Source: Terebella lapidaria (lineage: Eukaryota > Annelida > Polychaeta > Terebellida > Terebellidae). From it: a stretch of 64,000 nt of DNA. Both the position numbers and the translations under genes were made by a program. The stretch lies in contig OX424559.1 of NCBI GenBank assembly GCA_949152475.1, forward strand, positions 32,531,119 through 32,595,118, written 5' to 3'. Shown here in pieces: positions 11,677-58,299 of the stretch; position 1 is the first letter of the stretch; the number at the start of each line of letters is the position of its first letter. The notes below the pieces were generated by a model. It did not search any database, was not told where the DNA came from, and was given only the letters and a program-made list of their open reading frames with translations.

Positions 11677-11703
11677 GCAATTACGAAAAACGCAAATACA
11701 ACA

Positions 11704-12696: not shown

Positions 12697-12699
12697 GTC

Positions 12700-14268
12700 A
12701 TGTGCATCTCCAATCCTCTGAGCGACCGTTGCCGAGTCTGGGATGTAGAGCTCGCCCGCGACGATATCGACAGACAATTCATCCTCGATGGTCTACGCTT
12801 CGGTTTCGATGTGATTAAGAACCAGTCGCCTATCAGAGAGACGTTCGAGTGTGATAACTATCTATCAGTCAGCTCCAGAGATAACATCGCTGTAGTCAAA
12901 CATCAGATCAAACAAGAGATCGCTCAGGGACGCTACGTTGTGACCAAAACTAAACCTCAGTTTGTCAGTGCTATCGGTGCTATACCCAAAGCCGACTCAG
13001 GAGTAAGACTGATCCACGACTGTAGTAGACCGACCGGCCGCAGTGTCAATTCATTCTCATCAGTTGAAAAACATTCGTTTGATACCATTGACACGGCACT
13101 GAAACACATCACACCTGATGCTTGGATGGCAAAAAAAGACTTGAAAACAGCGTACCGCCATGTTGGTATTCATCCTACATGGGGCTAAAATTTACATTTC
13201 CAGGATCCAAGTCCGCCTCATACATGTACGACACTCGACTTTGTTTTGGGGCATCCCGCTCGGTTGGTATATTCCATCGCATTACACAAAGCATCGTCAG
13301 AATGATGAATAACAAGGGTTTCAAATCAGTGCTGTGCTATATAGATGACTTTTTGATAGTCGAAGAAACTAGAGAGAAATGTCGGGAGGCCATGGATACA
13401 CTCATTGAACTACTGACTAGGCTTGGATTTACAACAAACTGGTCAAAAGTTATCGAGCCAGCACAAAAACTCCCCTTCCTCGGTATAGATATTGACACAG
13501 TGAGTGGAAGGCTCTCCATACCTCACAGCAAGCTACAAGAAATCAAGAGCACGGTATCGCACTGGCAGTCCAAAACAAGAGCCAGCAAACGCGAACTCCA
13601 GTCGCTGATTAGGAAAGTATCCTGGGCCAGTAAGTGTATCAAAGCCACGCGTCCAACGCTACATCGCCTCATTAACCATCTACGTCGCCTCATTAACATC
13701 CTGTCGCGGGAAAGACCTCTGCCCGAAACCACAGTCCATACTGACGCATCGCTTGAAGCAGGTGCAGCCTACCATGATGGGGATTTCGCCTTCTCCGCAT
13801 GGGCTGTCGACTTCCCAGATTTGCAACAAGAAAGCATATATGTCAAAGAACTTTGCGCCATATATCTGGCAGTTAAACGCTGGAGGCACAAATGGACAAA
13901 TAAATGTATTTATGTGTACACAGACAACAAAGGCTTTGAGTGGGCCGTCCGTAAGGGACTAACTACCAATGTTGTCACCAACGATATTTTGCGTGAAAAT
14001 ACTCTGGTTATGTGCTACTCATGATATCGCTCTCAACCCTGTCTATATCAATACTAAATGTAACTATGTTGCAGATGCCCTGTCAAGACTTCATGATATC
14101 AAGTTTTTACCATTTGCCCTCAGATATATCTGTCAGTATGTTGTCGATGTATGTCTTCCTGTGTTTAGTATGCTACACCACATGTCATTGGGCAGTTACA
14201 TTTATGTGTATGGTTGCATTTGGTTTCATCTTTTTCTGCAGATGTACAAGAGCAGGAGCGACTCCTAG
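12700..14268 (+). pseudogene. pol: Ngaro reverse transcriptase-RNase H, copy A, frameshifted
   Basis: Starts ATG 12,700 in the gag frame. RT motifs seen: GAIPKADSGVRLIHDCSRP, the first catalytic block around DLKTAYRHVG, CYIDDFLIV (the YIDD box) and FLGIDID. RNase H motifs follow: HTDASLEAGAAY, YVKELCAIYLAV, YTDNKG and VADALSRL. Compared with copy B, 14 nt are missing near 13,180, which breaks the frame just before the second RT block, and one extra A near 13,998 breaks it again. Another difference to copy B is Lys for Ile at the first catalytic block (AKKDLK against AKIDLK). The protein would be inactive without repair. Confidence 0.85.
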
Positions 14269-15233
14269 ACCGAGATATCGTCCGGTATCGGCACGCCACC
14301 TACGCTGCCAATACAAAAGTCGCCTACATGTCCCAGAGAGACACATATCTGCGTTTCTGCATTTATTTCAACTATCGTATTGTCCCAGCATCCGAGATGA
14401 CACTATGCCGATATGCTGCCTTCCTGGCACGAAGCCTGCGACCTCAAAGTATCGACAATTACCTGAACGACGTGCGGATAGTCCACCTTGAATGCGGCAG
14501 TAAGAACCCTCTGGTCGATAACTGGTTTCTCACAACAGTGCTAAAAGGCATCAAGCGCAATCTCGGTAGAGCCCAGAGACAAAAACTCCCAATAACGCCC
14601 GAAATTCTCCGTTCCATCCAGTCCAGGTTAGACCGGCAGTGTCCAAGAGACATGGCGTTCTGGGCAGCCTGCCTTTGTGCATTCTTCAGCTTCTACCGCA
14701 AGGCCACATTACTGCCCAAGACAAACCATGACAACACCACAGACGGAGGCCTCCGAAAACGAGATTGTCGGCTCCTAGACGACTGCGCTATTCTGAGCAC
14801 TGGGCGAACAAAGACTATACAATATAGAGAGAGGTGTCTGACGACACCAATCCCTGTCATCCCAGGCTCTGTTTTGTGCCCAGTGTCAGCCCTCAAAGAA
14901 CTGTTTCTCATCGGATCCACCATTCCAGATACAGCACCTCTATTCTCTTACCCATGTGCCAGCGGAGGCTATGCCTGCATTACCCACTCGTCCTTCGTCA
15001 ACACTTTGCGCCTGGTTATTGCTGCCTGTGGTATGCCTGCCCCCGAGTACTCTGGACATTCGTTTCGGAGGGGTGGGGCAACGTTTGCCTTCGCATGCGG
15101 CGTCCCGGCGACCCTAATAAAACGTCAAGGGGATTGGAGATCCGCTGCCTACGAGAGGTATCTCACGCCTTCAATGGACACACAGAAAAAGCTAACTCGA
15201 GTAATGGCACTAAAATTGTTGCCCACCACATAG
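14214..15233 (+). CDS. Ngaro tyrosine recombinase, intact frame
   Basis: 339-codon open frame; the real protein probably starts near residue 10 (DVQEQERLLDRDIVRY). It would cut and rejoin DNA to insert the circular element copy. An N-terminal core-binding domain (about 22-110) is followed by the catalytic domain with Arg162 (FYRKATLL), HSFRRGG (His282, Arg285), GDW (Trp308) and the likely nucleophile Tyr316 (YERYL). All four key positions of the family are present. The region just upstream reads TTTTTCTGCAG directly before ATGTACAAG, like a 3' splice site, so the recombinase may be made from a spliced RNA. It is the only unbroken recombinase of the four copies here. Confidence 0.85.
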   Translation: MHLVSSFSADVQEQERLLDRDIVRYRHATYAANTKVAYMSQRDTYLRFCIYFNYRIVPASEMTLCRYAAFLARSLRPQSIDNYLNDVRIVHLECGSKNPLVDNWFLTTVLKGIKRNLGRAQRQKLPITPEILRSIQSRLDRQCPRDMAFWAACLCAFFSFYRKATLLPKTNHDNTTDGGLRKRDCRLLDDCAILSTGRTKTIQYRERCLTTPIPVIPGSVLCPVSALKELFLIGSTIPDTAPLFSYPCASGGYACITHSSFVNTLRLVIAACGMPAPEYSGHSFRRGGATFAFACGVPATLIKRQGDWRSAAYERYLTPSMDTQKKLTRVMALKLLPTT

Positions 15234-15368
15234 ATCACAACACACACTCACACAGGGGTTTGGTTTGGAGATTTTTATCTTGGTAAAAAATAAAGAATTT
15301 TCCCAAACCCACGTCAATCAATTTCCACTAAACACTGATCATACATGTATATACAAATCAACATTTAA

Positions 15369-15547
15369 GTGTATATTAAAACGTTTAATATGGTTTAAAT
15401 GGGTTTTCGTCGTTTTCACTCATGCAGACCTGCCGAGGTTTAAGCTTGTACTCTCATATTACTCAATACCAGTATATATTGCATGCACCTGTCTGTCGTC
15501 TCAATTTCAGTGTTGTACATGTACCCGCTTTATTCAAACGCTTTTTA
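15369..15547 (+). repeat. Ngaro direct repeat A2, copy A
   Basis: 179 bp, almost identical to A1. It is preceded by B1 (GGAGATTTTTATCTTGG ... CAACATTTAA) and followed by CCCACCCACCCACCC. Confidence 0.85.
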
Positions 15548-15730
15548 CCCACCCACCCACCCTCAAATTTGGGTAGATTTACGTGTATTTTATTGGTTGT
15601 ATGTATTGAATGTATGTTTTGGAGAGTATAAAAAATGCACTGGCACAAGATAATTGTAAGAGTAACACATAACATAAAACAGTAAAAGCAATGAAAATTC
15701 AATGAGCGACATTGAACAAATTTTGTTGGA

Positions 15731-18002
15731 TTATTTAAGTCTGCTTCTGACTAAAAGTTCTTTAAGATTTTGATGCTTCTTGTAAGCTGTTGCTATTTTA
15801 ATATCACCATCAGTATTTTTGTTGAGTTGTTTCATATGTTTTTTAACAATTTGGGCCGAAAGAGCACCTGTTTTTGAGAAGGGTACTATATACACCAGGT
15901 CGAATTTATTTTTACTTTTGTTCAAAGGGTCATACTTTGTAAATTTTTTAACGTTGAGGCCATGAGGTTCGAAAGTGCCTAGAGTGTCAATCCAACAATA
16001 TTCCCTTTCAAGTCGCCATTGTTTGTTTAAAAGTTCATCACCAAGATCGGAAAAGAGAAAAACATTCGATGGAAAATTCAGTTTTGCTGTGAAATTTAGA
16101 TAGATGACTGTATAATGCATATTCCTCATTGCAGCTAGTTATTGTAGCACGGTGACGATTGTTTCTGAATTTGAGTGACTTACCGGTTTCACCTACGTAT
16201 TGTTTTTCGCAAAGCTTACAAGTGTATAGATAAATTATATTTTCTGAGTTGCAATCCAAAGCTGAGTTGATTGAGTAGGTTTGTTCAAAAACTGATCCTG
16301 AGAAATTTTGACAATTTGGAACTAAATGACTTGTCTGACATTGTCTAGAATTACAAGGTTTCGAGCCAGATGAGCTAGAAGTGGGCAATTGAAAATCAGC
16401 ACCTAGTCTTTCCTCACTGTTTAGAATTCTGAATGTTTCATTCTTTATTTTGCGAAGCCAACGTTTTGAATAGTTACGTTTCGAAAGTGCCTTGAATAAT
16501 GTTTGGCAAGCTGATTCAACATCATCTGGATATGAGCAAATTTGGGAAAATCGAAAAACTTGGGACTTGATTAGTCCTTTATAAGTGTGCTTTGGATGGA
16601 AAGAGAGCTTATGCAGCAACTGATGAGTATCCGTTGGTTTGAAGAAAACTTTTGCTTCTAAAGTGTTTTCTTTGCTCCTGAACAAAGTAGTATCCAGAAA
16701 ATTAACTGAATCAGTACTAATTTCAGCTTTGAACTTGATTGATGTCCTATGAGAATTGAATATTTCGAGAAACTGATTAAATTTGGAAATGCCGTGTGGC
16801 CAAATGAGGAAAATGTCATCTAAATATCTATGAGAGCAATCTGGTTTGAATGGACACTTTTGTAATGCTTGCTTTTCAAATTCAGCCATGTAAATATCTG
16901 CATAATGAGGTGCATATTTCTGACCCATGGCTGTGCCTGAAACTTGTAGGAATGTTTTACCGTCAAATTCAAAGTCATTACATTTAAGTGAAATTTCCAA
17001 TAATTCTATTATACCTTTGAATAGTTCATTGTTTTTCAGGGTCGGGAATGCATTTTTAATTGCTTGGATACCTTCTTCCTGATTTATATTAGTATACATA
17101 CTTTCAACATCTAAAGTGATTAGTAAAGAATTTGGATCTAGTTCAAGCCCTCTAACTTTATCTAAAAAGTCATATGTGTTTTTTATATATGACGGATGCT
17201 TATTTGCTTGATCTTTTATATATGAATCAATATACATAGCTACTTTTTCAGATTCACTGCTGCAGTCAGAAACAATTGGGCACCCTGGAGGCATTACATT
17301 TGGAATTGGCCAGGAGTCTTTGGGTTTATGAATTTTAGGTAGCATATAAAATCTTCTTTGACGAGGGCGTTCTGGTGGTAGAAGAAATTGGAATACTTTT
17401 TCAGAAAGGCATCCAGAATTGCGTAATCCTTTTAAAATTTTTGTTATTTTTTCTGAATTTTCTAGGTAAAGAGGAGTGTCAATTTCTCTGTAATGAGCTG
17501 GATTGTATAGTTGACGAAAGCCTTCATTAATATATTTTTGCTTATCCATAATTACGACTGCACTACCTTTATCTGTTTTTTTAATTACCAAGTCTACGTT
17601 ATTTTGTAAATCCTTTATAGTTTTATATTCAATTTTTGTTAGGTTTTTGGTTTCGGGTTGAATTTTCAAATTTTCAATTTCTTTTGATATTGCCGAAATG
17701 CAATCTAAAACAGGCTTGTCAATCATGGAACTGGGTGGAGTCCAGGTAGATTTTGGAGTGAATTTTGATCTATTTGTAAATGAATTTGGACGGTGAGAAA
17801 AATAATTATGAAGTTTGAGTTTTCTACCAAAATCTTGCACAGCTTGTTCAATTGGATCCAATGTTATTTTGGGTGTGGGAACAAATGTCAAACCACGATT
17901 TAGAAGAGCGATTTGTGTGTCCGAAAGTGTAAATTTGGAAAGGTTTACAACATTATTAGTCCTACTGGAGTTCGGTGGACTCTCAGAATGATTTAGTTTA
18001 AA
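15731..18002 (-). pseudogene. PLE ORF2: reverse transcriptase + GIY-YIG nuclease, copy 1, one 17-bp deletion
   Basis: The frame opens inside the end of ORF1, has no ATG before the conserved NLSKF ... RGLTFVPTP segment, and so probably depends on frameshifting at 17,996-18,002. RT blocks: KGSAVVIMDKQKY, FYMLPKIHK, LLITLDVESMYTNI, TAMGQKYAPHYADIYM and RYLDDIFLIWPHG (catalytic DD). The linker has CNSRQCQTSHLVPNC (zinc-binding). The nuclease has ENIIYLYTCKLCEKQYVGETG (split GIY/YIG) and RNNRHRA. Near 16,047 a 17-bp stretch present in copy 2 (ACCTGTTCAATTGGTAA) is missing between AA repeats, so the last ~110 codons, which continue in another frame to 15,731, are cut off. Up to that point (over 600 codons) the frame is unbroken. 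Confidence 0.87.
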
Positions 18003-19724
18003 TGACTGAGCCAGAATTTCAACATTTCATTGGCCGTTTGTTCAGTCCAATGAATGTTATCTGGTTGTGTAGAGAACTTGATAGGATCCAACTGTTTAAC
18101 AACTGTGAGATTGCTGAAACGTGAACTCATGTCATCCAAAGCCCTGTTAATCATATCCAAGTTGCTTTTCTCTACAGACAGAAGATTGTCTGAGTAGTTA
18201 ATTTTTGGAATAAGAATTTTGGAGTGGGGGAAGATTCGGAAAGCACAGCTGAGCATATTCCTCAGCTCTGGAATTGAAGTAACACTTGGTTTGGAGCTTC
18301 GATTGTTCAGGCCAACACTTAAGATTAAGTTTTTGGGGGCATCAAATGACTTTTTACAGGCCGTGAACATCATTCTCAGATGGTTGAACAAAGCTCCAGG
18401 ATAAGACACAACTTGGATATCACTGACGGGGGATTTGGTGATGCGAGAGAGGTTAGAAGAGCCGAGGACGACAGTGGTGGAGGTTAGTTTAGGAAGGGCC
18501 CAAAGAGTTTTGGGCCCTCTGATAGTGGGAGGAGATACATGGAAAGTGGTGTTAGGAGAGTTTTTAGGAGAGGCAAAGCGAGAGCGTTTGCCTTTAGGTA
18601 GAGAGGAGGGTGAGAGTTCAGGAGAAGAAGGAGAGCGCAGACGCCGTTTGGGCGTGGCACTAAGGCGGTTATCAGGAGAAGAGCGAGAGAGAGGTGGCCA
18701 ATCATCAGATGATGAGAGGCAAGGAGGATTAGAGAGAGTGTCAAGGAGTTGGAAGCGGTTAGAAGTGGACACAGAGGGAAGGGTTTAGGGAGGGTGTTAT
18801 TTGAGGATGGAGGTATAGAGCGAGAGGGTTTAGGATTGTTAGTAGGAGAGTTGGCACGTTTTAGGTCCATTTGGAGGCGGCCAAAGAAGTTAGAGCCTTG
18901 ACCATGACGATTAACACCCCAGTGGCTGTCAGGAACTGGATGGACAATGTGACACCCTTCAGGTAGACCCATCAGAGTTTCACGGAACAATTTGCAAGAA
19001 TTAAACTTAACTTGAAGAAGTTGACGCATGATTCTATTTTTACTTTTATGCCAGAACGGGGACAGGCTAGGAATTTCACTAGCCAAGCGTTTAGCCACTC
19101 CTGCATGGGGAGCCCTAAGGATCCGATTGGCTAGGTGTTGACAGTCATGGTACCGGGCTTTGTGATACTGATAGTGTGCTCAAGGCTAGGGAATCTCATA
19201 CCACGATAGGATATATTACATGGAAAGAAATTACTAAGTGGGTGTTTGTGACCTTTAACCTCACAAGTCTGAGGTTTTGATTGAGAGTTAGAATTTGGAA
19301 TAGGGGAATTTGGAAGAGTGGAGCTTTTGAATTTCTGGATGGTGGAAGCCTGAAGTTTTTTGCCAAAATGAGATTTGGCCTGCTGAATGACGAGAGCTAC
19401 CGAATTTGCAATGTCCGAATCAGATAAACCTAAAGAGGAAATGTGGGCCAAAAGGTTTTGAATTGAGCTCTCGTAGTGTTCCACCAATTGTTTGGTCACG
19501 TTTTGTACCCAATTTTGATTGATTTTGGAGATTTTTTGTTTGATTAGAGGACCAGAACAAGCAGGTTTGATGAAGTCATCCAGGTGTTGTTTTTTACTGA
19601 AAGCCCTGGTGACTTGGCCTTGAGACTGCTGGAGCATTAGTGACAGGTGGTGAAAGCATTGAAGGAGAGTGTAAAAAGAACGGAAGTGAGGAGGTTTAGA
19701 AAGAGCCATGATACGTTTCAGCAA
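17993..19724 (-). pseudogene. PLE ORF1 (NADAR + SGNH hydrolase), copy 1, broken
   Basis: Same protein as at 25,138-26,847. A 2-nt deletion near 19,167 (GATAGTGTGCTC against GATAGATGTGCTC in copy 2) breaks the frame inside the NADAR domain after SLEH. The reading continues in another frame (19,098 onward, WGVNRHGQGSNFFG visible) and shifts again near 18,780, where about 11 nt differ from copy 2. The C-terminal SGNH part (17,993-18,772) is open: GSSNLSRI, SVGLNNR and DNIHWT are all present. Confidence 0.85.
17996..18002 (-). promoter_or_regulatory. TTTAAAC slippery heptamer at ORF1/ORF2 border, copy 1
   Basis: On the minus strand the last ORF1 codons read CAT TTA AAC TAA. The heptamer T TTA AAC fits X XXY YYZ exactly in the ORF1 phase and lies directly before the stop (17,995-17,993). 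A -1 shift there enters the ORF2 frame, which is open. The same arrangement occurs at 25,141-25,147. Confidence 0.6.
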
Positions 19725-19879
19725 TTAAATTTGAAAGCATTAAAGCCAGAATGCGATTGATTTGGATGATAAAACCTAAGGATAAAATCATAAAAATAAA
19801 AACAATTGTATAAAATGGAAACAAAATGTTCGAAGAAGCCTGAATGCAAAGATATGGTCAATAATCTGGGTCTGGGATG

Positions 19880-21402
19880 TAGAGCTCGCCCGCGACGATA
19901 TCGACAGACAATTCATCCTCGATCGTCTACGCTTCGGTTTCGATGTGATTAAGAACCAGTAGCCTATCAGAGAGACGTTCGAGTGTGATAACTATGTATC
20001 AGTCAGCTCCAGAGATAACATCGCTGTAGTCAAACATCAGATCAAACAAGAGATCGCTCAGGGACGCTACGTTGTGACCAAAACTAAACCTCAGTTTTTC
20101 TATGGTGCTATACCCAAAGCCGACTCAGGAGTAAGACTGATCCACGACTGTAGTAGACCGACCGGCCGCAGTGTCAATTCATTCTCATCAGTTGAAAAAC
20201 ATTCGTTTGATACCATTGACACGGCACTGAAACACATCACACCTGATGCTTGGATGGCAAAAATAGACTTGAAATCAGCGTACCGCCATGTTGGTATTCA
20301 TCCTGATAACTATCAATACATGGGGCTAAAATTTACATTTCCAGGATCCAAGTCCGCCTCATACATGTACGACACTAGACTTTGTTTTGGGGCATCCCGC
20401 TCGGTCGGTATATTCCATCGCATTACACAAAGCATCGTCAGAATGATGAATAACAAGGGTTTCAAATCAGTGCTGTGCTATATAGATGACTTTTTGATAG
20501 TCGAAGAAACTAGAGAGAAATGTCGGGAGGCCATGGATACACTCATTGAACTACTGACTAGGCTTGGATTTACAATAAACTGGTCAAAAGTTATCGAGCC
20601 AGCACAAAAACTCCCCTTCCTCGGTATAGTTATTGACACAGTGAGTGGAAGGCTCTCCATACCTCACAGCAAGCTACAAGAAATCAAGAGCACGGTATCG
20701 CACTGGCAGTCCAAAACAAGAGCCAGCAAACGCGAACTCCAGTCGTTGATTGGGAAAGTATCCTGGGCCAGTAAGTGTATCAAAGCCACGCGTCCAATGC
20801 TACATCGCCTCATTAACCATCTACGTCGCCTCATTAACATCCCGTCGCGGGAAAGACCTCTGCCCGAAACCACAGTCCATACTGACGCATCGCTTGAAGC
20901 AGGTGCAGCCTACCATGATGGGGATTTCGCCTTCTCCGCATGGGCTGTCGACTTCCCAGATTTGCAACAAGAAAGCATATATGTCAAAGAACTTTGCGCC
21001 ATATATCTGGCAGTTAAACGCTGGAGGCACAAATGGACAAATAAATGTATTTATGTGTACACAGACAACAAAGGCTCTGAGTGGGCCGTCCGTAAGGGAC
21101 TAACTACCAATGTTGTCGCCAACGATATTTTGCGTGCAATACTCTGGTTATGTGCTACTCATGATATCACTCTCAACCCTGTCTATATCAATACTAAATG
21201 TAACTATATTGCCCTGTCAAGACTTCATGATATCAAGTTTTTACCATTTGCCCTCAGATATATCTGTCAGTATGTTGTCGATGTATGTCTTCCTGTCTTC
21301 AGTATGCTACACCACATGTCATTGGGCAGTTACATTTATGTGTATGGTTGCATTTGGTTTCAACTTTTTCTGCAGATGTACAAGAGCAGGAGCGACTCCT
21401 AG
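19880..21402 (+). pseudogene. pol: Ngaro RT-RNase H, copy B
   Basis: From 20,074 a 442-codon frame is open and contains the part deleted in copy A (DLKSAYRHVGIHPDNYQYMG), CYIDDFLIV, HTDASLEAG, YVKELCAIYL and YTDNKG. At 21,210 it lacks 6 nt that copy A has, which removes Ala-Asp from the conserved ADALSR end of RNase H; that Asp is normally catalytic. Upstream of 20,074 the frame is broken: a stop (AACCAGTAGCC near 19,960) and a small deletion (CAGTTTTTCTATGG against CAGTTTGTCAGTGCTATCGG). Confidence 0.82.
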
Positions 21403-22362
21403 ACCGAGATATCGTCCGGTATCGGCACGCCACCTACGCTGCCAATACAAAAGTCGCCTACATGTCCCAGAGAGACACATATCTGCGTTTCTGCATTTAT
21501 TTCAACTATCGTATTGTCCCAGCATCCGAGATGACACTATGCCGATATGCTGCCTTCCTGGCCTGCGACCTCAAAGTATCGACAATTACCTGAACGTCGT
21601 GAGGATAGTCCACCTTGAAAGCGGCAGTAAGAACCCTCTGGTCGATAACTGGTTTCTCACAACAGTGCTAAAAGGCATCAAGCGCAATCTCGGTAGAGCC
21701 CAGAGACAAAAACTCCCAATAACGCCCGAAATTCTCCGTTCCATCCAGTCCAGGTTAGACTGGCAGTGTCCAAGAGACATGGCGTTCTGGGCAGCCTGCC
21801 TTTGTGCATTCTTCAGCTTCTACCGCAAGGCCACATTACTGCCCAAGACAAACCATGACAACACCACAGACGGAGGCCTTCGAAAACGAGATTGTCGGCT
21901 CCTAGACGACTGCGCTATTCTGAGCACTAGGCGAACAAAGACTATACAATATGGAGAGAGGTGTCTGACGACACCAATCCCTGTCATCCCAGGCTCTGTT
22001 TTGTGCCCAGTGTCAGCCCTCAAAGAACTGTTTCTCATCGGATCCACCATTCCAGATACATGGAACCTCTATTCTCTTACCCACGTGCCAGCGGAGGCTA
22101 TGCCTGCATAACCCACTCGTCCTTCGTCAACACTTTGTGCCTGGTTATTGCTGCCTGTGGTATGCCTGCCTCCGAGTACTCTGGACATTCGTTTCAGAGG
22201 GGTGGGGCAACATTTGCCTTCGTATGCGGCGTCCCGGCGACCCTAATAAAACGTCAAGGGGATTGGAGATCCACTGCCTACGAGAGGTATCTCACGCCTT
22301 CAATGGACACACAGAAAAAGCTAACTCGAGTTATGGCACTAAAATTGTTGCCCACCACATAG
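21370..22362 (+). pseudogene. Ngaro tyrosine recombinase, copy B
   Basis: Aligns with 14,242-15,233. A 7-nt deletion after TTCCTGGC (near 21,560) and a 2-nt gain (GATACATGGAACC for GATACAGCACC near 22,060) break the frame. The C-terminal part is open (HSFQRGG, so the Arg of HxxR is changed to Gln in this copy; GDWRSTAYERYL is kept). The same two indels are found in copies C and D. Confidence 0.85.
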
Positions 22363-22497
22363 ATCACACCACACACTCACACAGGGGTTTGGTTTGGAGA
22401 TTTTTACCTTGGTAAAAAATAAAGAATTTTCCTAAACCCACGTCAATCAATTTCCACTAAACACTGATCATACATGTATATACAAATCAACATTTAA

Positions 22498-22675
22498 GTG
22501 TATATTAAAACGTTTAATATGGTTTAAATGGGTTTTCGTCGTTTTCACTCATGCAGACCTGCCGAGGTTTAAGCTTGTACTCTCATATTACTCAATACCA
22601 GTATATATTGCATGCACCTGTCTGTCGTCTCAATTTCAGTGTTGTACATGTACCCGCTTTATTCAACGCTTTTTA
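22498..22675 (+). repeat. Ngaro direct repeat A2, copy B
   Basis: Same as 15,369-15,547 but one A shorter (TTCAACGC for TTCAAACGC). Confidence 0.85.
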
Positions 22676-22858
22676 CCCACCCACCCACCCTCAAATTTGG
22701 GTAGATTTACGTGTATTTTATTGGTTGTATGTATTGAATGTATGTTTTGGAGAGTATAAAAAATGCACTGGCACAAGATAATTGTAAGAGTAACACATAA
22801 CATAAAACAGTAAAAGCAATGAAAATTCAATGAGCGACATTGAACAAATTTTGTTGGA

Positions 22859-25147
22859 TTATTTAAGTTTGCTTCTGACTAAAAGTTCTTTAAGATTTTG
22901 ATGCTTCTTGTAAGCTGTTGCTATTTTAATATCACCATCAGTATTTTTGTTGAGTTGTTTCATATGTTTTTTAACAATTTGGGCCGAAAGAGCACCTGTT
23001 TTTGAGAAGGGTACTATATACACCAGGTCGAATTTATTTTTACTTTTGTTCAAAGGGTCATACTTTGTAAATTTTTTAGCGTTGAGGCCATGAGGTTCGG
23101 AAGTGCCTAGAGTGTCAATCCAACAATATTCCCTTTCAAGTCGCCATTGTTTGTTTAAAAGTTCATCACCAAGATCGGAAACCTGTTCAATTGGTAAAAG
23201 AGAAAAACATTCGATGGAAAATTCAGTTTTGCTGTGAAATTTAGATAGATGACTGTATAATGCATATTCCTCATTGCAGCTAGTTATTGCAGCACGGTGA
23301 CGATTGTTTCTGAATTTGAGTGACTTACCGGTTTCACCTACGTATTGTTTTTCGCAAAGCTTACAAGTGTATAGATAAATTATATTTTCTGAGTTGCAAT
23401 TCAAAGCTGAGTTGATTGAGTAGGTTTGTTCAAAAACTGATCCTGAGAAATTTTGACAATTTGGAACTAAATGACTTGTCTGACATTGTCTAGAATTACA
23501 AGGTTTCGAGCCAGATGAGCTAGAAGTGGGCAATTGAAAATCAGCACCTAGTCTTTCCTCACTGTTTAGAATTCTGAATGTTTCATTCTTTATTTTGCGA
23601 AGCCAACGTTTTGAATAGTTACGTTTCGAAAGTGCCTTGAATAATGTTTGGCAAGCTGATTCAACATCATCTGGATATGAGCAAATTTGGAAAATCGAAA
23701 AACTTGGGACTTGATTAGTCCTTTATAAGTGTGCTTTGGATGGAAAGAGAGCTTATGCAGCAACTGATGAGTATCCGTTGGTTTGAAGAAAACTTTTGCT
23801 TCTAAAGTGTTTTCTTTGCTCCTGAACAAAGTAGTATCCAGAAAATTAACTGAATCAGTACTAATTTCAGCTTTGAACTTGATTGATGTCCTATGAGAAT
23901 TGAATATTTCGAGAAACCGATTGAATTTGGAAATGCCGTGTGGCCAAATGAGGAAAATGTCATCTAAATACCTATGAGAGCAATCTGGTTTGAATGGACA
24001 CTTTTGTAGTGCTTGCTTTTCAAATTCAGCCATGTAAATATCTGCATAATGAGGTGCATATTTCTGACCCATGGCTGTGCCTGAAACTTGTAGGAATGTT
24101 TTACCGTCAAATTCAAAGTCATTACATTTAAGTGAAATTTCCAATAATTCTATTATACCTTTGAATAGTTCATTGTTTTTCAGGGTCGGGAATGCATTTT
24201 TAATTGCTTGGATACCTTCTTCATGATTTATATTAGTATACATACTTTCAACATCTAAAGTGATTAGTAAAGAATTTGGATCTAGTTCAAGCCCTCTAAC
24301 TTTATCTAAAAAGTCATACGTGTTTTTTTATATATGATGGATGCTTATTTGCTTGATCTTTTATATATGAATCAATATACATAGCTACTTATTCAGATTC
24401 ACTGCTGCAGTCAGAAACAATTGGGCGCCCTGGAGGCATTACATTTGGAATTGGCCAGGAGTCTTTGGGTTTATGAATTTTAGGTAGCATATAAAATCTT
24501 CTTTGACGATGGCGTTCTGGTGGTAGAAGAAATTGGAATACTTTTTCAGAAAGGCATCCAGAATTGCGTAATCCTTTTAAAATTTTTGTTATTTTTTCTG
24601 AATTTTCTAGGTAAAGAGGAGTGTCAATTTCTCTGTAATGAGCTGGATTGTATAGTTGACGAAAGCCTTCATTAATATATTTTTGCTTATCCATAATTAC
24701 GACTGCACTACCTTTATCTGCTTTTTTAATTACCAAGTCTACGTTATTTTGTAAATCCTTTATAGTTTTATATTCAATTTTCGTTAGGTTTTTGGTTTCT
24801 GGTTGAATTTTCAAGTTTTCAATTTCCTTAGATATTGCCGAAATGCAATCTAAAACGGGCTTGTCAATCATGGAACTCGGTGGAGTCCAGGTAGATTTTG
24901 GAGTAAATTTTGATCTATTTGTGAATGAATTTGGACGGTGAGAAAAATAATTATGAAGTTTGAGTTTTCTACCAAAATCTTGCACAGCTTGTTCAATTGG
25001 ATCCAATGTTATTTTGGGTGTGGGAACAAATGTCAAACCACGATTTAGAATAGCGATTTGTGTGTCCGAAAGTGTAAATTTGGAAAGGTTTACAACATTA
25101 TAAGTCGTACTGGAGTTCGGTGGACTCTCAGAATGATTTAGTTTAAA
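22859..25147 (-). pseudogene. PLE ORF2 (RT + GIY-YIG), copy 2, three breaks
   Basis: The N-terminal part is open from the slippery site to 24,389, where AAA in copy 1 is TAA here (SESE then stop). One extra T in a T run near 24,328 shifts the frame. RT blocks LEVSG.. TAMGQKYAPHY and RYLDDIFLIWPHG are then open (24,243-23,590). A single base is missing near 23,690 (TTTGGAAAATC against TTTGGGAAAATC). The GIY-YIG part (23,533-22,859) is open and complete, including the 17 bp lost from copy 1. Confidence 0.87.
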
Positions 25148-26847
25148 TGATTGAGCCAGAATTTCAACATTTCATTGGCCGTTTGTTCAGTCCAATGAAT
25201 GTTATCTGGCTGTGTAGAGAACTTGATAGGATCCAATTGTTTAACAACTGTGAGATTGCTGAAACGTGAACTCATGTCATCCAAAGCCCTGTTAATCATA
25301 TCCAAGTTGCGTTTCTCTACAGACGGAAGATTGTCTGAGTAGTTAATTTTTGGAATGAGAATTTTGGAGTGGGGGAAGATTCGGAAAGCACTGCTGAGCA
25401 TATTCCTCAGCTCTGGAATTGAAGTAACACTTGGTTTGGAGCTTCGATTGTTCAGGCCTACACTTAAGATTAAGTTTTTGGGGTCATCAAATGATTTTTT
25501 ACAGGCCGTGAACATCATTCTTAGATGGTTGAACAAAGCTCCAGGATAAGACACAACTTGGATATCACTGACAGGGGATTTGGTGATGCGAGAAAGGTTA
25601 GAAGAGCCGAGGATGACAGTGGAGGAGGTTAGTTTAGGAAGGGCCCAAAGAGTTTTGGGTCCTCTGATAGTGGAAGGAGAGACATGGAAAGTGGTGTTAG
25701 GAGAGTTTTTAGGAGAGACAAAGCGAGTGCGTTTGCCTTTAGGTAGAGATGAGGGTGAGAGTTCAGGAGAAGAAGGAGAGCGCGGACGCCGTTTGGGCGT
25801 GGCACTAAGGCAGTTATCAGGAGAAGAGCGAGAGAGAGGTGGCCAATCATCAGATGATGATAGGCAAGGAGAGTTGGAGAGGGTATCAAGGAGTTGGAAG
25901 CGGTTAGAAGTGGACACAGAGGGAGGGGTATTATTTGAAGATGGAGGTACAGAGCGAGAGGGTTTAGGCCTGGTAATAGGAGAGTTGGCACGTTTTAGGT
26001 CCATTAGGAGGCGGCCAAAGAAGTTAGAGCCTTGACCATGACGGTTAACACCCCAGTGGCTGTCAGGAACTGGATGGACAATGTGACACCCTTCAGGAAG
26101 ACCCATCAGAGTGTCACGGAACAATTTGCAAGAATTAAACTTAACTTGAAGAAGTTGACGCATGATTCCATTTTTACTTTTATGCCAGAATGGGGACAGG
26201 CTAGGAATTTCACTAGCCAAACGTTTGGCCACTCCTGCATGGGGAGCCCTAAGGATCCGATTGGCTAGGTGTTGACAGTCATGGTACCGGGCTTTGTGAT
26301 ACTGATAGATGTGCTCAAGGCTAGGGAATCTCATACCACGATAGGATATATTACATGGGAAGAAATTACTAAGTGGATGTTTGTGACCTTTTACCTCGCA
26401 AGTCTGAGGTTTTGATTGAGAGTTAGAATTTGGAATAGGGGAATTTGGAAGAGTAGAGGTTTTGAATTTCTGGATTGTGGAAGCCTGAAGTTTTTTGCCG
26501 AAATGAGATTTAGCCTGCCTAATGACGAGAGCTACCGAATTTGCAATGTCCGAATCTGATAAACCTAAAGAGGAAATGTGGGCCAAAAGGTTTTGAATTG
26601 AGCTCTCATAGTGTTCCACCAATTGTTTGGTCACGTTTTGTACCCAATTTTGATTAATTTTGGAGATTTTTTGTTTGATTAGAGGACCAGAACAAGCAGG
26701 TTTAATGAAGTCATCCAGGTGTTGTTGTTTTTTACTGAAAGCCCTGGTGACTTGGCCTTGAGACTGCTGGAGCATTAGTGACAGATGGTGAAAGCATTGA
26801 AGAAGAGTGTAAAAAGAACGGAAGTGAGGAGGTTTAGAAAGAGCCAT
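25138..26847 (-). CDS. PLE ORF1: NADAR (YbiA-like) + SGNH hydrolase fusion, 569 aa, intact
   Basis: ATG at 26,847; earlier in-frame codons lack ATG. Residues 1-145 are mostly helical and of unknown role. Residues about 150-290 form a NADAR domain: GHKHPLSNFFPCNISYRG, FPSLEHIYQYHKA, a Trp-containing stretch, LLQVKFNSCKLFRDTLM, DSHWGVN and GQGSNFFGRLLMDL. NADAR proteins act on ADP-ribose N-glycosidic bonds, and some reverse ADP-ribosylation of guanine in DNA. Residues 290-400 are a Ser/Pro-rich basic linker (PKRRPRSPSSPELSPSS). Residues 405-569 are SGNH-like: VILGSSNLSRI (Ser), SVGLNNR (Asn), DNIHWT (Asp, His). SGNH esterases are known in ORF1 of CR1 LINEs and in Ngaro elements. The pairing with NADAR in a PLE is unusual to my knowledge. 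Stop at 25,140-25,138, directly after TTTAAAC. Confidence 0.85.
   Translation of the reverse strand: MALSKPPHFRSFYTLLQCFHHLSLMLQQSQGQVTRAFSKKQQHLDDFIKPACSGPLIKQKISKINQNWVQNVTKQLVEHYESSIQNLLAHISSLGLSDSDIANSVALVIRQAKSHFGKKLQASTIQKFKTSTLPNSPIPNSNSQSKPQTCEVKGHKHPLSNFFPCNISYRGMRFPSLEHIYQYHKARYHDCQHLANRILRAPHAGVAKRLASEIPSLSPFWHKSKNGIMRQLLQVKFNSCKLFRDTLMGLPEGCHIVHPVPDSHWGVNRHGQGSNFFGRLLMDLKRANSPITRPKPSRSVPPSSNNTPPSVSTSNRFQLLDTLSNSPCLSSSDDWPPLSRSSPDNCLSATPKRRPRSPSSPELSPSSLPKGKRTRFVSPKNSPNTTFHVSPSTIRGPKTLWALPKLTSSTVILGSSNLSRITKSPVSDIQVVSYPGALFNHLRMMFTACKKSFDDPKNLILSVGLNNRSSKPSVTSIPELRNMLSSAFRIFPHSKILIPKINYSDNLPSVEKRNLDMINRALDDMSSRFSNLTVVKQLDPIKFSTQPDNIHWTEQTANEMLKFWLNHLN
25141..25147 (-). promoter_or_regulatory. 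TTTAAAC slippery heptamer at ORF1/ORF2 border, copy 2
   Basis: T TTA AAC in ORF1 phase, followed at once by TAA. The -1 frame reads into ORF2 without a stop, while upstream that frame closes at a TGA only about 12 codons earlier and offers no ATG. Downstream on the minus strand only a weak hairpin is obvious (GAGT ... ACTC within 25,117-25,133). Confidence 0.6.
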
Positions 26848-26978
26848 GATACTTTTCAGCAATTAATTTTGAAAGTATTAAAGCCAGAACGTGATTGATT
26901 TGGATGATAAAACCAAAGGATAAAATTATGAAATATAAAAACAATTGTATAAAATGGAAACAAAACGTTTGAAGAAGC

Positions 26979-27070
26979 CTGAATGCAAAGATATGGTCAA
27001 TAATCTGACCAGTATCTAAAACAAAAAAAAACAAAAAATAATACAAAACAAAATAAAAGAGGTTACTCAC
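26979..27070 (-). other. possible intron in the PLE leader
   Basis: On the minus strand a consensus donor GTGAGTAA (GT at 27,070-27,069) follows the hammerhead-like motif. A long T-rich tract ends in GTTTTAG (AG at 27,017-27,016), giving a 55-nt intron; a second AG at 26,980-26,979 (TTTGCATTCAG) gives 92 nt. Introns in the 5' part are known for Penelope of Drosophila. Seen as sites only. Confidence 0.4.
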
Positions 27071-27087
27071 AATGTACTCTGCCTGTT

Positions 27088-27125
27088 GCACGACCGGTTT
27101 CGGAGTTGAATCCTTTGTCAAGTGC
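27088..27125 (-). ncRNA. hammerhead-ribozyme-like motif in the PLE leader
   Basis: Minus strand: stem I GCAC (27,125-27,122) pairs with GTGC (27,091-27,088). Core TTGACAA stands where CTGANGA is expected. A stem GGA/TCC with loop TTCAAC is followed by GAAACCGGTC, which fits GAA + a loopless stem III ACC/GGT + the cleavage-site C. Short palindromic stem III is known for hammerheads in PLEs. The two core changes are C3 to U and G8 to A, the two bases that pair with each other in the active fold. Activity is doubtful; homology to PLE hammerheads is likely. Confidence 0.5.
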
Positions 27126-27129
27126 TGAA

Positions 27130-27640
27130 GTCTAAAGAACCTACTGTAAGGAAATATTGGCTTGTGCCAATGTCAATTTTGTTTGAGTAAATCAATTAAC
27201 AGTTTTCCAATGGTTGAGCAAATGAATTAGCAGTTTTCAGAACAGTTTGCCAAGAAAAGTGACATATGTTGAGTATAGATAATAAACAGTTAATGAATTC
27301 AATTGTTTTTGATATGCGTATCTGACACTGAGTAAAACAATTAGCAGTTAGTTGATTGACAAACATAATTAACGTTTGAAGTTATATTTTCTGAAGTATG
27401 CTAAAATAAATAATTTTCAAAATGGTTTTACTGCGATGCTTTCCAGCAATAGATTCTTAGGCAGAGATTTTATTAGGCATGAAATTGTTTTTTGAAACTG
27501 AAGATGTGTCAAATTGACTTGCATTGCTTCAGGAGACTTCAAATAAAATGAGATGAAAAAACAAAATGTACTAAAATGAACTGAAAAACAAATTATTTAT
27601 AAAATGTGTTTTGACCCTTACAATATGCTAGGCATGGGCT
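27130..27640. other. PLE pseudo-LTR region, non-coding
   Basis: Between the leader of copy 2 and the 3' end of the truncated copy 3. AT-rich, with repeated words such as GAGTAAA(T/A)CAATTA(A/G)CAG and TTAGCAGTT at spacings of tens of bases. A near copy is at 33,900-34,410. No coding region. Confidence 0.55.
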
Positions 27641-27644
27641 AAGT

Positions 27645-28454
27645 ATGTTTTGGAGAGAATAAAAAATGCACTGGCACAAGATAATTGTAAGAGTAACACA
27701 TAACATAAAACAGCAATAAAAATTCAATGAGCGACATTGAACACATTTTGTTGGATTATTTAAGTCTGCTTCTGACTAAAAGTTCTTTAAGATTTTGATG
27801 CCTCTTGTAAGCTGTTGCTATTTTAATATCACCATCAGTATTTTTGTTGAGTTGTTTCATATGCTTTTTAACAATTTGGACCGAAAGAGCACCTGTTTTT
27901 GAGAAGGGTACTATATACACCAGGTCGAATTTATTTTTACTTTTGTTCAAAGGGTCATACTTTGTAAATTTTTGAACGTTGAGGCCATGAGGTTCGAAAG
28001 TGCCTAGAGTATCAATCCAACAATATTCCCTTTCAAGTCGCCATTGTTTGTTTAAAAGTTCATCACCAAGATCGGAAACCTGTTCAATTGGTAAAAGAGA
28101 AAAACATTCGATGGAAAATTCAGTTTTGCTGTGAAATTTAGATAGATGACTGTATAATGCATTTTCCTCATTGCAGCTAGTTATTGCAGCACGGTGACGA
28201 TTGTTTCTGAATTTGAGTGATTTACCGGTTTCACCTACATATTGTTTTTCGCAAAGCTTACAAGTGTATAGATAAATTATATTTTCTGAGTTGCAATCCA
28301 AAGCTGAGTTGATTGAGTAGGTTTGTTCAAAAACTGATCCTGAGAAATTTTGACAATTTGGAACTAAATGACATGTCTGACATTGTCTAGAATTACAAGG
28401 TTTTGAGCCAGATGAGCTGGAAGTGGGCAATTGAAAATCAGCACCTAGCCTTTC
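27645..28454 (-). pseudogene. PLE ORF2 C-terminal fragment (GIY-YIG), copy 3
   Basis: Open frame 28,430-27,756 (224 codons) covering the Cys linker CNSRQCQTCHLVPNC, the nuclease core CKLCEKQYVGETG and the C-terminal tail DLGDELLNKQWRLEREYCW to the natural stop. RT and ORF1 are absent. On its 5' side the PLE sequence meets Ngaro sequence at about 28,454 (CTTTC|AGATATATC) with a 2-base overlap. Confidence 0.85.
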
Positions 28455-28569
28455 AGATATATCTGTCAGTATGTTGTCGATGTATGTCTTCCTGTGTTTA
28501 GTATGCTACACCACATGTCATTGGGCAGTTACATTTATGTGTATGGTTGCATTTGGTTTCAACTTTTTC

Positions 28570-29561
28570 TGCAGATGTACAAGAGCAGGAGCGACTCCTA
28601 GACCGAGATATCGTCCGGTATCGGCACGCCACCTACGCTGCCAATACAAAAGTCGCCTACATGTCCCAGAGAGACACATATCTGCGTTTCTGCATTTATT
28701 TCAATTATCGTATTGTCCCAGCATCCGAGATGACACTATGCCGATATGCTGCCTTCCTGGCCTGCGACCTCAAAGTATCGACAATTACCTGAACGTCGTG
28801 AGGATAGTCCACCTTGAAAGCGGCAGTAAGAACCCTCTGGTCGATAACTGGTTTCTCACAACAGTGCTAAAAGGCATCAAGCGCAATCTCGGTAGAGCCC
28901 AGAGACAAAAACTCCCAATAACGCCCGAAATTCTCCGTTCCATCCAGTCCAGGTTAGACTGGCAGTGTCCAAGAGACATGGCGTTCTGGGCAGCCTGCCT
29001 TTGTGCATTCTTCAGCTTCTACCGCAAGGCCACATTACTGCCCAAGACAAACCATGACAACACCACAGACGGAGGCCTCCGAAAACGAGATTGTCGGCTC
29101 CTAGACGACTGCGCTATTCTGAGCACTAGGCGAACAAAGACTATACAATATGGAGAGAGGTGTCTGACGACACCAATCCCTGTCATCCCAGGCTCTGTTT
29201 TGTGCCCAGTGTCAGCCCTCAAAGAACTGTTTCTCATCGGATCCACCATTCCAGATACATGGAACCTCTATTCTCTTACCCACGTGCCAGCGGAGGCTAT
29301 GCCTGCATAACCCACTCGTCCTTCGTCAACACTTTGTGCCTGGTTATTGCTGCCTGTGGTATGCCTGCCTCCAAGTACTCTGGACATTCGTTTCGGAGGG
29401 GTGGGGCAACATTTGCCTTCGTATGCGGCGTCCCGGCGACCCTAATAAAACGTCAAGGGGATTGGAGATCCACTGCCTACGAGAGGTATCTCACGCCTTC
29501 AATGGACACACAGAAAAAGCTAACTCGAGTAATGGCACTAAAATTGTTGCCCACCACATAG
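28570..29561 (+). pseudogene. Ngaro tyrosine recombinase, copy C
   Basis: Carries the same 7-nt deletion (after TTCCTGGC) and 2-nt gain (ACATGGAACC) as copy B, so it descends from the same broken form. The C-terminal catalytic part is open, with HSFRRGG intact here, unlike copy B. Confidence 0.83.
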
Positions 29562-29696
29562 ATCACACCACACACTCACACAGGGGTTTGGTTTGGAGAT
29601 TTTTACCTTGGTAAAAAATAAAGAATTTTCCCAAACCCACGTCAATCAATTTCCACTAAACACTGATCATACATGTATATACAAATCAACATTTAA

Positions 29697-29875
29697 GTGT
29701 ATATTAAAACGTTTAATATGGTTTAAATGGGTTTTCTTCATTTTCACTCATGCAGACCTGCCGAGGTTTAAGCTTGTACTCTCATATTACTCAATACCAG
29801 TATATATTGCATGCACCTGTCTGTCGTCTCAATTTCAGTGTTGTACATGTACCCGCTTTATTCAAACGCTTTTTA
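29697..29875 (+). repeat. Ngaro direct repeat A2, copy C, between B1 and B2
   Basis: 179 bp A2, preceded by B1 and followed by (CCCA)n, GTATGT repeats and then B2 (29,958-30,089). B1 and B2 share GGAGATTTTTACCTTGG through ATACAAATCAA(C/T)ATTTAA. Confidence 0.85.
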
Positions 29876-30089
29876 CCCACCCACCCACCCTCAAATTTGG
29901 GTAGATTTACGTGTATTTTATTGGTTGTATGTATTGAATGTATGTATGTATGTACGTGTGGAGATTTTTACCTTGGTAAAAAATAAAGAATTTTCCCACC
30001 TTGGTAAAAAATAAAGAATTTTCCCAAACCCACGTCAATAAATTTCCACTAAACACTGATCATACATGTATATACAAATCAATATTTAA

Positions 30090-34414: not shown

Positions 34415-35220
34415 TTCGGAGAGAATAAAAAATGCACTGGCACAAGATAATTGTAAGAGTAACACATAACATAAAACAGCAATAAAAATTCAATGAGCGA
34501 CATTGAACAAATTTTGTTGGATTATTTAAGTCTGCTTCTGACTAAAAGTTCTTTAAGATTTTGATGCCTCTTGTAAGCTGTTGCTATTTCAATATCACCA
34601 TCAGTATTTTTGTTGAGTTGTTTCATATGCTTTTTAACAATTTGGACCGAAAGAGCACCTGTTTTTGAGAAGGGTACTATATACACCAGGTCGAATTTAT
34701 TTTTACTTTTGTTCAAAGGGTCATACTTTGTAAATTTTTGAACGTTGAGGCCATGAGGTTCGAAAGTGCCTAGAGTATCAATCCAACAATATTCCCTTTC
34801 AAGTCGCCATTGTTTGTTTAAAAGTTCATCACCAAGATCGGAAACCTGTTCAATTGGTAAAAGAGAAAAACATTCGATGGAAAATTCAGTTTTGCTGTGA
34901 AATTTAGATAGATGACTGTATAATGCATTTTCCTCATTGCAGCTAGTTATTGCAGCACGGTGACGATTGTTTCTGAATTTGAGTGATTTACCGGTTTCAC
35001 CTACATATTGTTTTTCGCAAAGCTTACAAGTGTATAGATAAATTATATTTTCTGAGTTGCAATCCAAAGCTGAGTTGATTGAGTAGGTTTGTTCAAAAAC
35101 TGATCCTGAGAAATTTTGACAATTTGGAACTAAATGACATGTCTGACATTGTCTAGAATTACAAGGTTTTGAGCCAGATGAGCTGGAAGTGGGCAATTGA
35201 AAATCAGCACCTAGCCTTTC
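34415..35220 (-). pseudogene. PLE ORF2 C-terminal fragment (GIY-YIG), copy 4
   Basis: Unit-2 duplicate of copy 3; the open frame 35,196-34,522 differs from copy 3 by one residue near the end (Lys to Glu). Contains CKLCEKQYVGETG and the C-terminal tail. Confidence 0.85.
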
Positions 35221-36855
35221 AGATATATCTGTCAGTATGTTGTCGATGTATGTCTTCCTGTGTTTAGTATGCTACACCACATGTCATTGGGCAGTTACAT
35301 TTATGTGTATGGTTGCATTTGGTTTCAACTTTTTCTGCAGATGTACAAGAGCAGGAGCGACTCCTAGACCGAGATATCGTCCGGTATCGGCACGCCACCT
35401 ACGCTGCCAATACAAAAGTCGCCTACATGTCCCAGAGAGACACATATCTGCGTTTCTGCATTTATTTCAACTATCGTATTGTCCCAGCATCCGAGATGAC
35501 ACTATGCCGATATGCTTCCTTCCTGGCCTGCGACCTCAAAGTATCGACAATTACCTGAACGTCGTGAGGATAGTCCACCTTGAAAGCGGCAGTAAGAACC
35601 CTCTGGTCGATAACTGGTTTCTCACAACAGTGCTAAAAGGCATCAAGCGCAATCTCGGTAGAGCCCAGAGACAAAAACTCCCAATAACGCCCGAAATTCT
35701 CCGTTCCATCCAGTCCAGGTTAGACTGGCAGTGTCCAAGAGACATGGCGTTCTGGGCAGCCTGCCTTTGTGCATTCTTCAGCTTCTACCGCAAGGCCACA
35801 TTACTGCCCAAGACAAACCATGACAACACCACAGACGGAGGCCTCCGAAAACGAGATTGTCGGCTCCTAGACGACTGCGCTATTCTGAGCACTAGGCGAA
35901 CAAAGACTATACAATATGGGGAGAGGTGTCTGACGACACCAATCCCTGTCATCCCAGGCTCTGTTTTGTGCCCAGTGTCAGCCCTCAAAGAACTGTTTCT
36001 CATCGGATCCACCATTCCAGATACATGGAACCTCTATTCTCTTACCCACGTGCCAGCGGAGGCTATGCCTGCATAACCCACTCGTCCTTCGTCAACACTT
36101 TGTGCCTGGTTATTGCTGCCTGTGGTATGCCTGCCTCCAAGTACTCTGGACATTCGTTTCGGAGGGGTGGGGCAACATTTGCCTTCGTATGCGGCGTCCC
36201 GGCGACCCTAATAAAACGTCAAGGGGATTGGAGATCCACTGCCTACGAGAGGTATCTCACGCCTTCAATGGACACACAGAAAAAGCTAACTCGAGTAATG
36301 GCACTAAAATTGTTGCCCACCACATAGATCACACCACACACTCACACAGGGGTTTGGTTTGGAGATTTTTACCTTGGTAAAAAATAAAGAATTTTCCCAA
36401 ACCCACGTCAATCAATTTCCACTAAACACTGATCATACATGTATATACAAATCAACATTTAAGTGTATATTAAAACGTTTAATATGGTTTAAATGGGTTT
36501 TCGTCATTTTCACTCATGCAGACCTGCCGAGGTTTAAGCTTGTACTCTCATATTACTCAATACCAGTATATATTGCATGCACCTGTCTGTCGTCTCAATT
36601 TCAGTGTTGTACATGTACCCGCTTTATTCAAACGCTTTTTACCCACCCACCCACCCTCAAATTTGGGTAGATTTACGTGTATTTTATTGGTTGTATGTAT
36701 TGAATGTATGTATGTATGTACGTGTGGAGATTTTTACCTTGGTAAAAAATAAAGAATTTTCCCACCTTGGTAAAAAATAAAGAATTTTCCCAAACCCACG
36801 TCAATAAATTTCCACTAAACACTGATCATACATGTATATACAAATCAATATTTAA
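35221..36855 (+). mobile_element. Ngaro-type element, copy D (recombinase + split direct repeats)
   Basis: Unit-2 duplicate of copy C. Recombinase remnant 35,336-36,327 with the same two indels, A2 at 36,463-36,641, B2 to about 36,855. Confidence 0.83.
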
Positions 36856-44157: not shown

Positions 44158-44198
44158 TACACCCTCCCAAGATGAAAATGGCGTCCCGACATTTTACC

Positions 44199-58268: not shown

Positions 58269-58299
58269 ATTCTGTTTATACTGGTCGACTGTTGATATT

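Follow-up and report, generated by a model that had tools for sequence, protein, structure and literature searches.

A 64 kb stretch of the genome of the annelid Terebella lapidaria (contig OX424559.1), referred to here as the window, contains a Penelope-like element (PLE) whose first open reading frame (ORF1) encodes a NADAR domain and an SGNH hydrolase domain in one unbroken protein. The reverse transcriptase (RT) and GIY-YIG endonuclease are encoded by ORF2, which overlaps the end of ORF1 in the -1 frame at the heptamer U UUA AAC. ORF1 and the RT are linked throughout the genome, the arrangement is conserved among genome copies and relatives, and ORF1 is under purifying selection. We infer from these observations, with moderate confidence, that ORF1 is Gag-like, that -1 frameshifting yields a minority RT-endonuclease fusion, that NADAR removes host ADP-ribose and that SGNH acts on membranes.

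Results

A PLE with a NADAR-SGNH ORF1

The element and its second copy in the window comprise the following features.

22740..27642, minus strand: full PLE unit, 4,903 bp (self-alignment offset 4903; genome copy pairs spaced 4,907-4,924 bp)
25138..26847, minus strand: ORF1, unbroken, 569 aa (N-terminal helical domain, NADAR, linker and SGNH)
26443..26847, minus strand: N-terminal helical domain, ORF1 residues 1-135, also present in homologues lacking NADAR
25978..26409, minus strand: NADAR domain, ORF1 residues 147-290 (Glu178, Lys185, His258, Asp262, Trp265)
25663..25977, minus strand: low-complexity linker, ORF1 residues 291-395, mostly predicted disordered
25138..25662, minus strand: SGNH hydrolase domain, ORF1 residues 396-569 and stop codon (Ser416, Gly436, Asn466, Asp548, His551)
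25141..25147, minus strand: slippery heptamer U UUA AAC, in phase, immediately 5' of the stop codon of ORF1, with the RT in the -1 frame
22859..25140, minus strand: ORF2 (RT, Cys-rich segment and GIY-YIG endonuclease), in pieces 24389-25036, 23590-24243 and 22859-23533
27643..28454, minus strand: truncated PLE copy, its 3' end, head-to-tail upstream of ORF1 (96.9% match to 22740-23557)
17993..19724, minus strand: second ORF1 copy, interrupted and spread over three frames, with its heptamer at 17996-18002
16038..18026, minus strand: second-copy ORF2, in which the RT and the first part of GIY-YIG share a frame (continued in another frame at 15731-16138)

An initial annotation, made from the DNA alone, had described the ORF1 of this PLE as a fusion of NADAR and SGNH, and this observation is confirmed. 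The NADAR region gave a profile match above the curated cut-off and has the YbiA fold, and the SGNH region has the Ser, Gly, Asn and His blocks, at Ser416, Gly436, Asn466 and His551 in the window ORF1 (P0001). The ORF1 family profile also matched ZfL2-1 (PDB 4c1b) at 1.3e-8; ZfL2-1 has a coiled coil as its N-terminal part, whereas the Terebella ORF1 has a predicted helical bundle there. In a model of the family, ten-residue blocks of the N-terminal domain mostly had predicted local distance difference test (pLDDT) values of 80-95, while the domain modelled alone, without an alignment, gave 58. Linker residues 292-364 and 366-383 were below 50. The fold check VIA bore on residues 188-569, parts of ORF1 outside this range being barely tested.

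The element belongs to the PLE class, as its RT is followed by a C-terminal GIY-YIG endonuclease. Pfam searches matched RVT_1 within 16041-17891 (37.2 bits, cut-off 29.6) and GIY-YIG in the piece 22862-23533 (23.1 bits, cut-off 22.6); in an unbroken genome copy (L056), RVT_1 matched at 3.7e-11 and GIY-YIG at 18.9 bits, under its cut-off (E 0.002). Head-to-tail joined copies are typical of Penelope elements, and this partial tandem arrangement is seen here in the truncated copy at 27643-28454 and in regularly spaced pairs in the genome. Hammerhead ribozymes are frequent in PLEs, though not universal. No Rfam family matched at its gathering score within the window, a scan of 11000-37000 gave a weak match only, to an unrelated family (E 0.36), and the hammerhead core pattern occurred 7 times against 4.2 expected, a number reached by 14 of 100 shuffles. 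The Cys-rich stretch between RT and endonuclease (CNSRQCQTCHLVPNC in 4/4 unbroken copies) is shared with the Neptune group of PLEs, for which it serves as a criterion (PMC3846280); the likeness concerns this stretch.

Genome copies and selection

Searching the genome with ORF1 gave 1,197 first-look candidates, of which the best-matching 77 were scored; these give a lower bound on copy number and overstate the proportion of copies that are intact. All 77 loci, on 14 contigs, matched ORF1 over residues 1-569 at 97-100% identity, and 75 had no stop codon. Sixteen neighbouring pairs, in groups of two to four copies, were spaced at the interval given above and one pair at 4,427 bp. The element is a young, high-copy PLE of ~4.9 kb, and the NADAR-SGNH ORF1 is a family feature, as had been proposed from the broken second copy. 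The two window copies are not independent, because self-alignment showed two tandem duplications in the window (7.1 kb, 97% identity; 6.8 kb, 99.6%); both copies stem from one tandem duplication, as had been suspected. With the relative P0013 as query, 2,580 candidates were found and 66 scored, including loci missing from the first search; at some of these ORF1 is broken, with open frames down to 427 aa. Six extra loci, fetched as candidate diverged PLE families, all proved to belong to this one, with 93-98% identity along the main stretch.

The earlier suggestion of a selection test over ORF1 copies was followed up with 12 copies (pairwise DNA identity 97.4-99.9%). The pooled ratio of non-synonymous to synonymous polymorphism (pN/pS) was 0.23 (0.14-0.35), which indicates purifying selection; pairs are not independent and all intervals are rough. 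By domain, pN/pS was 0.11 (0.04-0.30) for the N-terminal domain, 0.11 (0.02-0.32) for NADAR, 0.46 (0.17-0.93) for the linker and 0.35 (0.14-1.08) for SGNH, and ORF2 gave 0.18 (0.11-0.28) in 4 copies. NADAR appears to be under constraint about equal to that on the polymerase, and is the more constrained of the two ORF1 enzyme folds. All ten NADAR and SGNH residues checked were kept in 11 of the 12 copies, the exception (L054) having Asp in place of His551.

Relatives from other sources

A protein search with ORF1 found 20 relatives, 15 with NADAR (P0002-P0014, P0016 and P0021, which is of the long interspersed nuclear element (LINE) type) and five without (P0015, P0017-P0020). The latter retain the N-terminal part and at least most of SGNH (P0019 is incomplete), which suggests either that NADAR was inserted between two older domains or that these five have lost it. 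A search with alignment A1 returned 19 matches, 17 of them previously found, and P0001 against viral contigs gave one pattern match and no relative. An alignment of 20 rows contained no stretch of sufficient conservation for scanning other collections.

The SGNH Ser is retained in 16 of the 20 members of A1 and missing in P0010, P0011, P0014 and P0020. In P0010, P0011 and P0014 it is replaced by Glu or Gly, with the His also replaced in the first two and the NADAR motifs retained in all three. To judge from these substitutions, this lineage may use NADAR without esterase activity.

The RT search found 4,010 relatives, of which 120 are listed. Comparison of these 120 with the 20 ORF1 matches gave four ORF1/RT pairs from equal-sized contigs of the same source (4805, 5762, 5375 and 14721 bases), with RTs ranked 5, 7, 8 and 14 among those listed; as a control, size offsets of 1-100 gave a mean of 0.26 pairs and a maximum of 2. 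Although circumstantial, this pairing supports the expectation that NADAR lies upstream of related PLEs elsewhere.

The NADAR active site

Glu178 and Lys185 are positioned like E43 and K50 of the Phytophthora enzyme and are conserved in 15/15 NADAR-bearing members of A1. In the E. coli C7 NADAR, changes to the equivalent residues E88 and K95 impair function, E88A slightly in vitro (PMC11543638). Trp265, which with Lys185 matches the phosphate-binding pair W133 and K50, is likewise present in 15/15. The third active-site residue is Glu in YbiA-type, Asp in DarT-linked and His in phage NADARs. Here the Terebella PLE NADAR reads I-V-H-P-V-P-D against L-V-E-A-S-P-Y-D, with Val257 of P0001 at the place of the last-strand Glu (E125) of the YbiA subfamily, a Glu found only in P0016 (1/15). 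The initial annotation had made its case depend on the active-site acids, and these are kept in part: Glu178 stands throughout, but the last catalytic acid does not.

A His adjoins the place of the lost acid in 15/15 members, as L-x-H (or I/F-x-H) in 14 and as LEH in P0016. In this sequence alignment, His258 may stand in for the Glu or may correspond to the YbiA His that adjoins it. P0016, a relative of 852 aa, is YbiA-like in having both Glu and His at this last NADAR position, and LEH is perhaps the ancestral state of the PLE NADAR. On translation of the T4 record, phage T4 gp30.3 shows V-L-K-H-S and so resembles the PLE NADAR in having L-x-H instead of L-x-E, but it is a stand-alone and very divergent protein (end branch of 4.9 changes per column). 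The Pfam family Phage_30_3 was weakly matched by 2/20 A1 members (best E 0.008). Phage NADARs are reported to hydrolyse guanosine-linked ADP-ribose in vitro (PMC11125620), and from its residues catalysis by the PLE NADAR is plausible.

It is possible, if doubtful, that this NADAR is instead a catalytically weak or dead module that binds ADP-ribose, NAD or nucleotides. ORF1 would then use it to hold on to host proteins or chromatin that carry ADP-ribose, such as nicks marked by PARP at the start of target-primed insertion, and would leave the mark in place. In favour of this, the last acid is lost in 14/15 members while residues 185 and 265 are retained. Yet Glu178, opposite the distal ribose, is invariant, pN/pS of the domain is 0.11, and T4 gp30.3, which also lacks the Glu, belongs to the phage NADARs reported to be active in vitro (PMC11125620). 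We consider it unlikely that the substrates of NADAR are soluble small molecules derived from ADP-ribose or NAD (immune signals, RNA-repair by-products) rather than nucleic acid or protein. Soluble substrates have been proposed for phage NADARs (PMC9503650), and YbiA is a ribosyl N-glycosidase acting on riboflavin intermediates (PMC9503650, PMC11543638), but macromolecular targets are favoured for the NADARs of animal RNA-virus polyproteins, the nearest parallel to an RT-linked NADAR (PMC9503650).

The ORF1/RT junction

ORF1 had been described as lying ahead of the RT. The two are indeed linked, but ORF1 and the RT-endonuclease frame overlap at an apparent -1 frameshift signal, so that ORF1 is probably Gag-like and more than an upstream neighbour of the RT. 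In the better window copy of the RT, the frame is open from 18026, 34 nt into ORF1 in the -1 frame, with no ATG ahead of the RT motif LLNRGLTFVPTP. In the ORF1 frame the overlap reads CAT TTA AAC TAA, that is, U UUA AAC at the ORF1 stop, identically in both window copies. U UUA AAC is a classical -1 slippery heptamer, of the form X XXY YYZ, and it lies in phase in the overlap with an open -1 frame. It is present in 28/29 other fetched genome copies. The RT frame is open through its first 70 codons in 22/22 copies with sequence fetched behind ORF1, and ORF2 runs for 762 unbroken codons from heptamer to endonuclease end in 4/4 copies in which it was fetched. The minus strand of the window has many slippery heptamers of this general kind (292); the one at the junction stands out by its phase and its place in the 34-nt overlap. 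A 9-bp stem starts 8 nt 3' of it.

Among the 120 listed RTs, 42 have GLxFVP in the first 140 residues, and 21 of these have at least 40 aa before it. FKL, the -1 reading of the heptamer, lies 34-40 aa ahead of the RT motif in 17 of these 21 and is retained down to ~45% RT identity, which suggests that Gag-Pol-like expression may be a property of a broad PLE group. In a dual-frame test, 13 ORF1 homologues ending exactly in LN were compared with the 17 RTs that have FKL. The last residues of P0007 (WLSYLN*) and the first of P0030 (MVKLFKL) can share one DNA only with the heptamer TTTAAA[C/T], and the corresponding ends of P0009 and P0036 require the same. P0007 fits P0030 only, while the end of P0009 fits P0036 but also P0025, P0055 and P0058; the RTs size-paired with P0003 and P0005 begin 3' of the overlap, outside this test.

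Alternatively, ORF2 translation could begin by reinitiation after ORF1 has terminated, or at a near-cognate start codon within the overlap, which we think improbable. P0025, P0030 and P0036, among others, begin with M in the RT frame shortly before FKL, so re-initiation would also be allowed there; the corresponding codon in the Terebella family is CTG. In the copies read, however, no ATG precedes the RT motif, the heptamer has the exact phase and is U UUA AAC in 28/29 fetched copies, and two other families require TTTAAA[C/T] under the dual-frame constraint. In L057 the first Met lies inside the RT (YMLPKIH), and internal AUG initiation therefore cannot yield the whole enzyme in that copy.

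Other NADARs in the same genome

A genome search for the NADAR family gave 973 first-look candidates; 150 were scored, all above the cut-off, and 20 loci were opened. At the opened loci, NADAR forms the C-terminus of a frame preceding LINE-like proteins. Pfam matches at L011, L017 and L021 (G000 C6, C4 and C8) show a NADAR frame followed by an endonuclease-RT frame, and endonuclease or RT frames also lie downstream in L010, L014, L022, L024, L025 and L029; the RT scan covered these loci and L019. The non-PLE NADARs are of Glu type in 20/20 rows with data (one row had none), and the PLE NADARs of His type. A branch with 99/97 support separates the two in an unrooted tree, which is compatible with one origin (158 columns, 39/40 rows, GEN_L026 dropped as its C-terminal part is missing; the T4 branch is very long). 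Two retroelement classes in one genome carry two NADAR lineages, which makes a chance passenger less likely.

One locus, L019:1055-8965 (G000 C8), joins aspartyl protease, RT and NADAR in a single frame of 812 aa. We rejected it as a Gypsy-NADAR fusion, as the next frames are a LINE endonuclease-RT and then a Gypsy-type RNase H, and the best interpretation is that a LINE with a NADAR-ending ORF1 interrupts a Gypsy element.

Other features of the window

A plus-strand retroelement with RT and RNase H matches, which we take to resemble DIRS/Ngaro, is arrayed with the PLE (11498-15617, 19870-22745, 28453-29945 and 35219-36711), and a 179-bp repeat occurs at 11498, 15369, 22498, 29697 and 36463. 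Direct repeats of ~800 bp (97%) at 43369-44159 and 46561-47364 lie around an RNase H-integrase fragment (45030-46415, minus strand); the element they bound looks like a Gypsy-type long terminal repeat element. A further tandem duplication, of 2.77 kb at 99% identity, occupies 55530-58299 and 58298-61066.

Discussion

SGNH in a PLE ORF1 is not new, and NADAR has already been reported in retroelement proteins. An SGNH esterase in the ORF1 protein of CR1, RTEX and Penelope-like elements was described in 2013, and a membrane role was proposed for the CR1-type esterase (Schneider et al., PMC3905857). These elements share SGNH in ORF1 with the Terebella PLE; neither NADAR nor frameshifting appears in the text of that paper examined, which was not searched for either word. 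GDSL ORFs accompany Athena PLEs (PMC5408684), and bdelloid Athena elements and Terminons, with GDSL and DEDDy ORFs, likewise combine a PLE-class RT with an SGNH/GDSL ORF (PMC5408684, PMC6431247). Athena differs in having no endonuclease and in carrying GDSL as one among several accessory ORFs, and NADAR is not in the text examined. NADAR was reported in 2025 in Gypsy elements of the brown alga Ectocarpus and in oyster Tx1 LINEs, with a suggested role in processing the RNA intermediate (PMC12477816); these too are retroelement captures, but by other classes. In the literature searched (Repbase and supplementary files lay outside its scope) we found no NADAR in a PLE, no NADAR-SGNH pair and no -1 frameshift between ORF1 and RT in PLEs.

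In the reading that we favour, ORF1 would be a Gag-like ribonucleoprotein (RNP) protein that coats the element RNA, and the RT and endonuclease would arise as a minority ORF1-RT-endonuclease fusion when ribosomes shift frame by -1 at U UUA AAC, which would place NADAR and SGNH on both the bulk ORF1 protein and the polymerase. SGNH would bind the particle to lipid membranes, a role suggested earlier in CR1-type LINEs, and NADAR would remove ADP-ribose placed by host ADP-ribosyltransferases on guanine bases, or on particle RNA, complementary DNA (cDNA) or proteins. Physiological roles of NADAR outside DarT operons and in animals are described as open (PMC11125620). NADARs of animal RNA viruses tend to share a polyprotein with the polymerase, and their proposed target is host macromolecular ADP-ribosylation (PMC9503650); by analogy with them, the PLE NADAR may strip ADP-ribose from element RNA, cDNA or particle proteins. 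Blunting of a PARP-like host response, the other role raised in the initial annotation, would likewise be an inference.

Several observations weigh against this reading. In 14/15 members the catalytic acid close to the distal ribose (Glu/Asp, E125/D171) is missing, and YbiA and phage NADARs, active in vitro, gave cells no protection from DarT1 (PMC11125620). SGNH is without Ser and His in P0010, P0011 and P0020 and without Ser in P0014, which is incomplete, and His551 is altered in 1/12 genome copies (L054); an enzymatic role of SGNH is therefore not general. At the junction, the heptamer is broken in 1/29 fetched copies (L048, U UCA AAC), and the RNA fold behind it is just mildly better than shuffles (z -1.83 and -1.40, pseudoknot-free model). 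FKL is missing in 4/21 RT relatives, the ORF1 ends of P0012, P0015, P0016 and P0018 are compatible with 0/17 RTs, and to these must be added the relatives with M before FKL.

That ORF1 is a separate host or transposon gene lying beside the RT by chance in one duplicated locus, as the shared origin of both window copies might suggest, is refuted by the 22/22 junctions elsewhere, full-length ORF1 on 14 contigs, matching contigs in other sources and the overlapping frames.

A wider scenario, which we put forward tentatively, is that ADP-ribosylation of nucleic acid or RNP is a means by which invertebrates hold retroelements and RNA viruses in check, and that this PLE (His type), LINEs of the same genome (Glu type), brown-algal Gypsy elements and RNA viruses each captured NADAR as a counter-measure, the PLE tying it to its polymerase by -1 frameshifting. 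The heptamer suggests that a Gag-Pol type of expression strategy may extend to a wider set of PLEs. The architecture hints at a chemical tag, put on by the host, that such elements may need to remove, and a high-copy element whose NADAR is strongly constrained next to its polymerase makes it a testable question which ADP-ribose mark a retroelement must remove.

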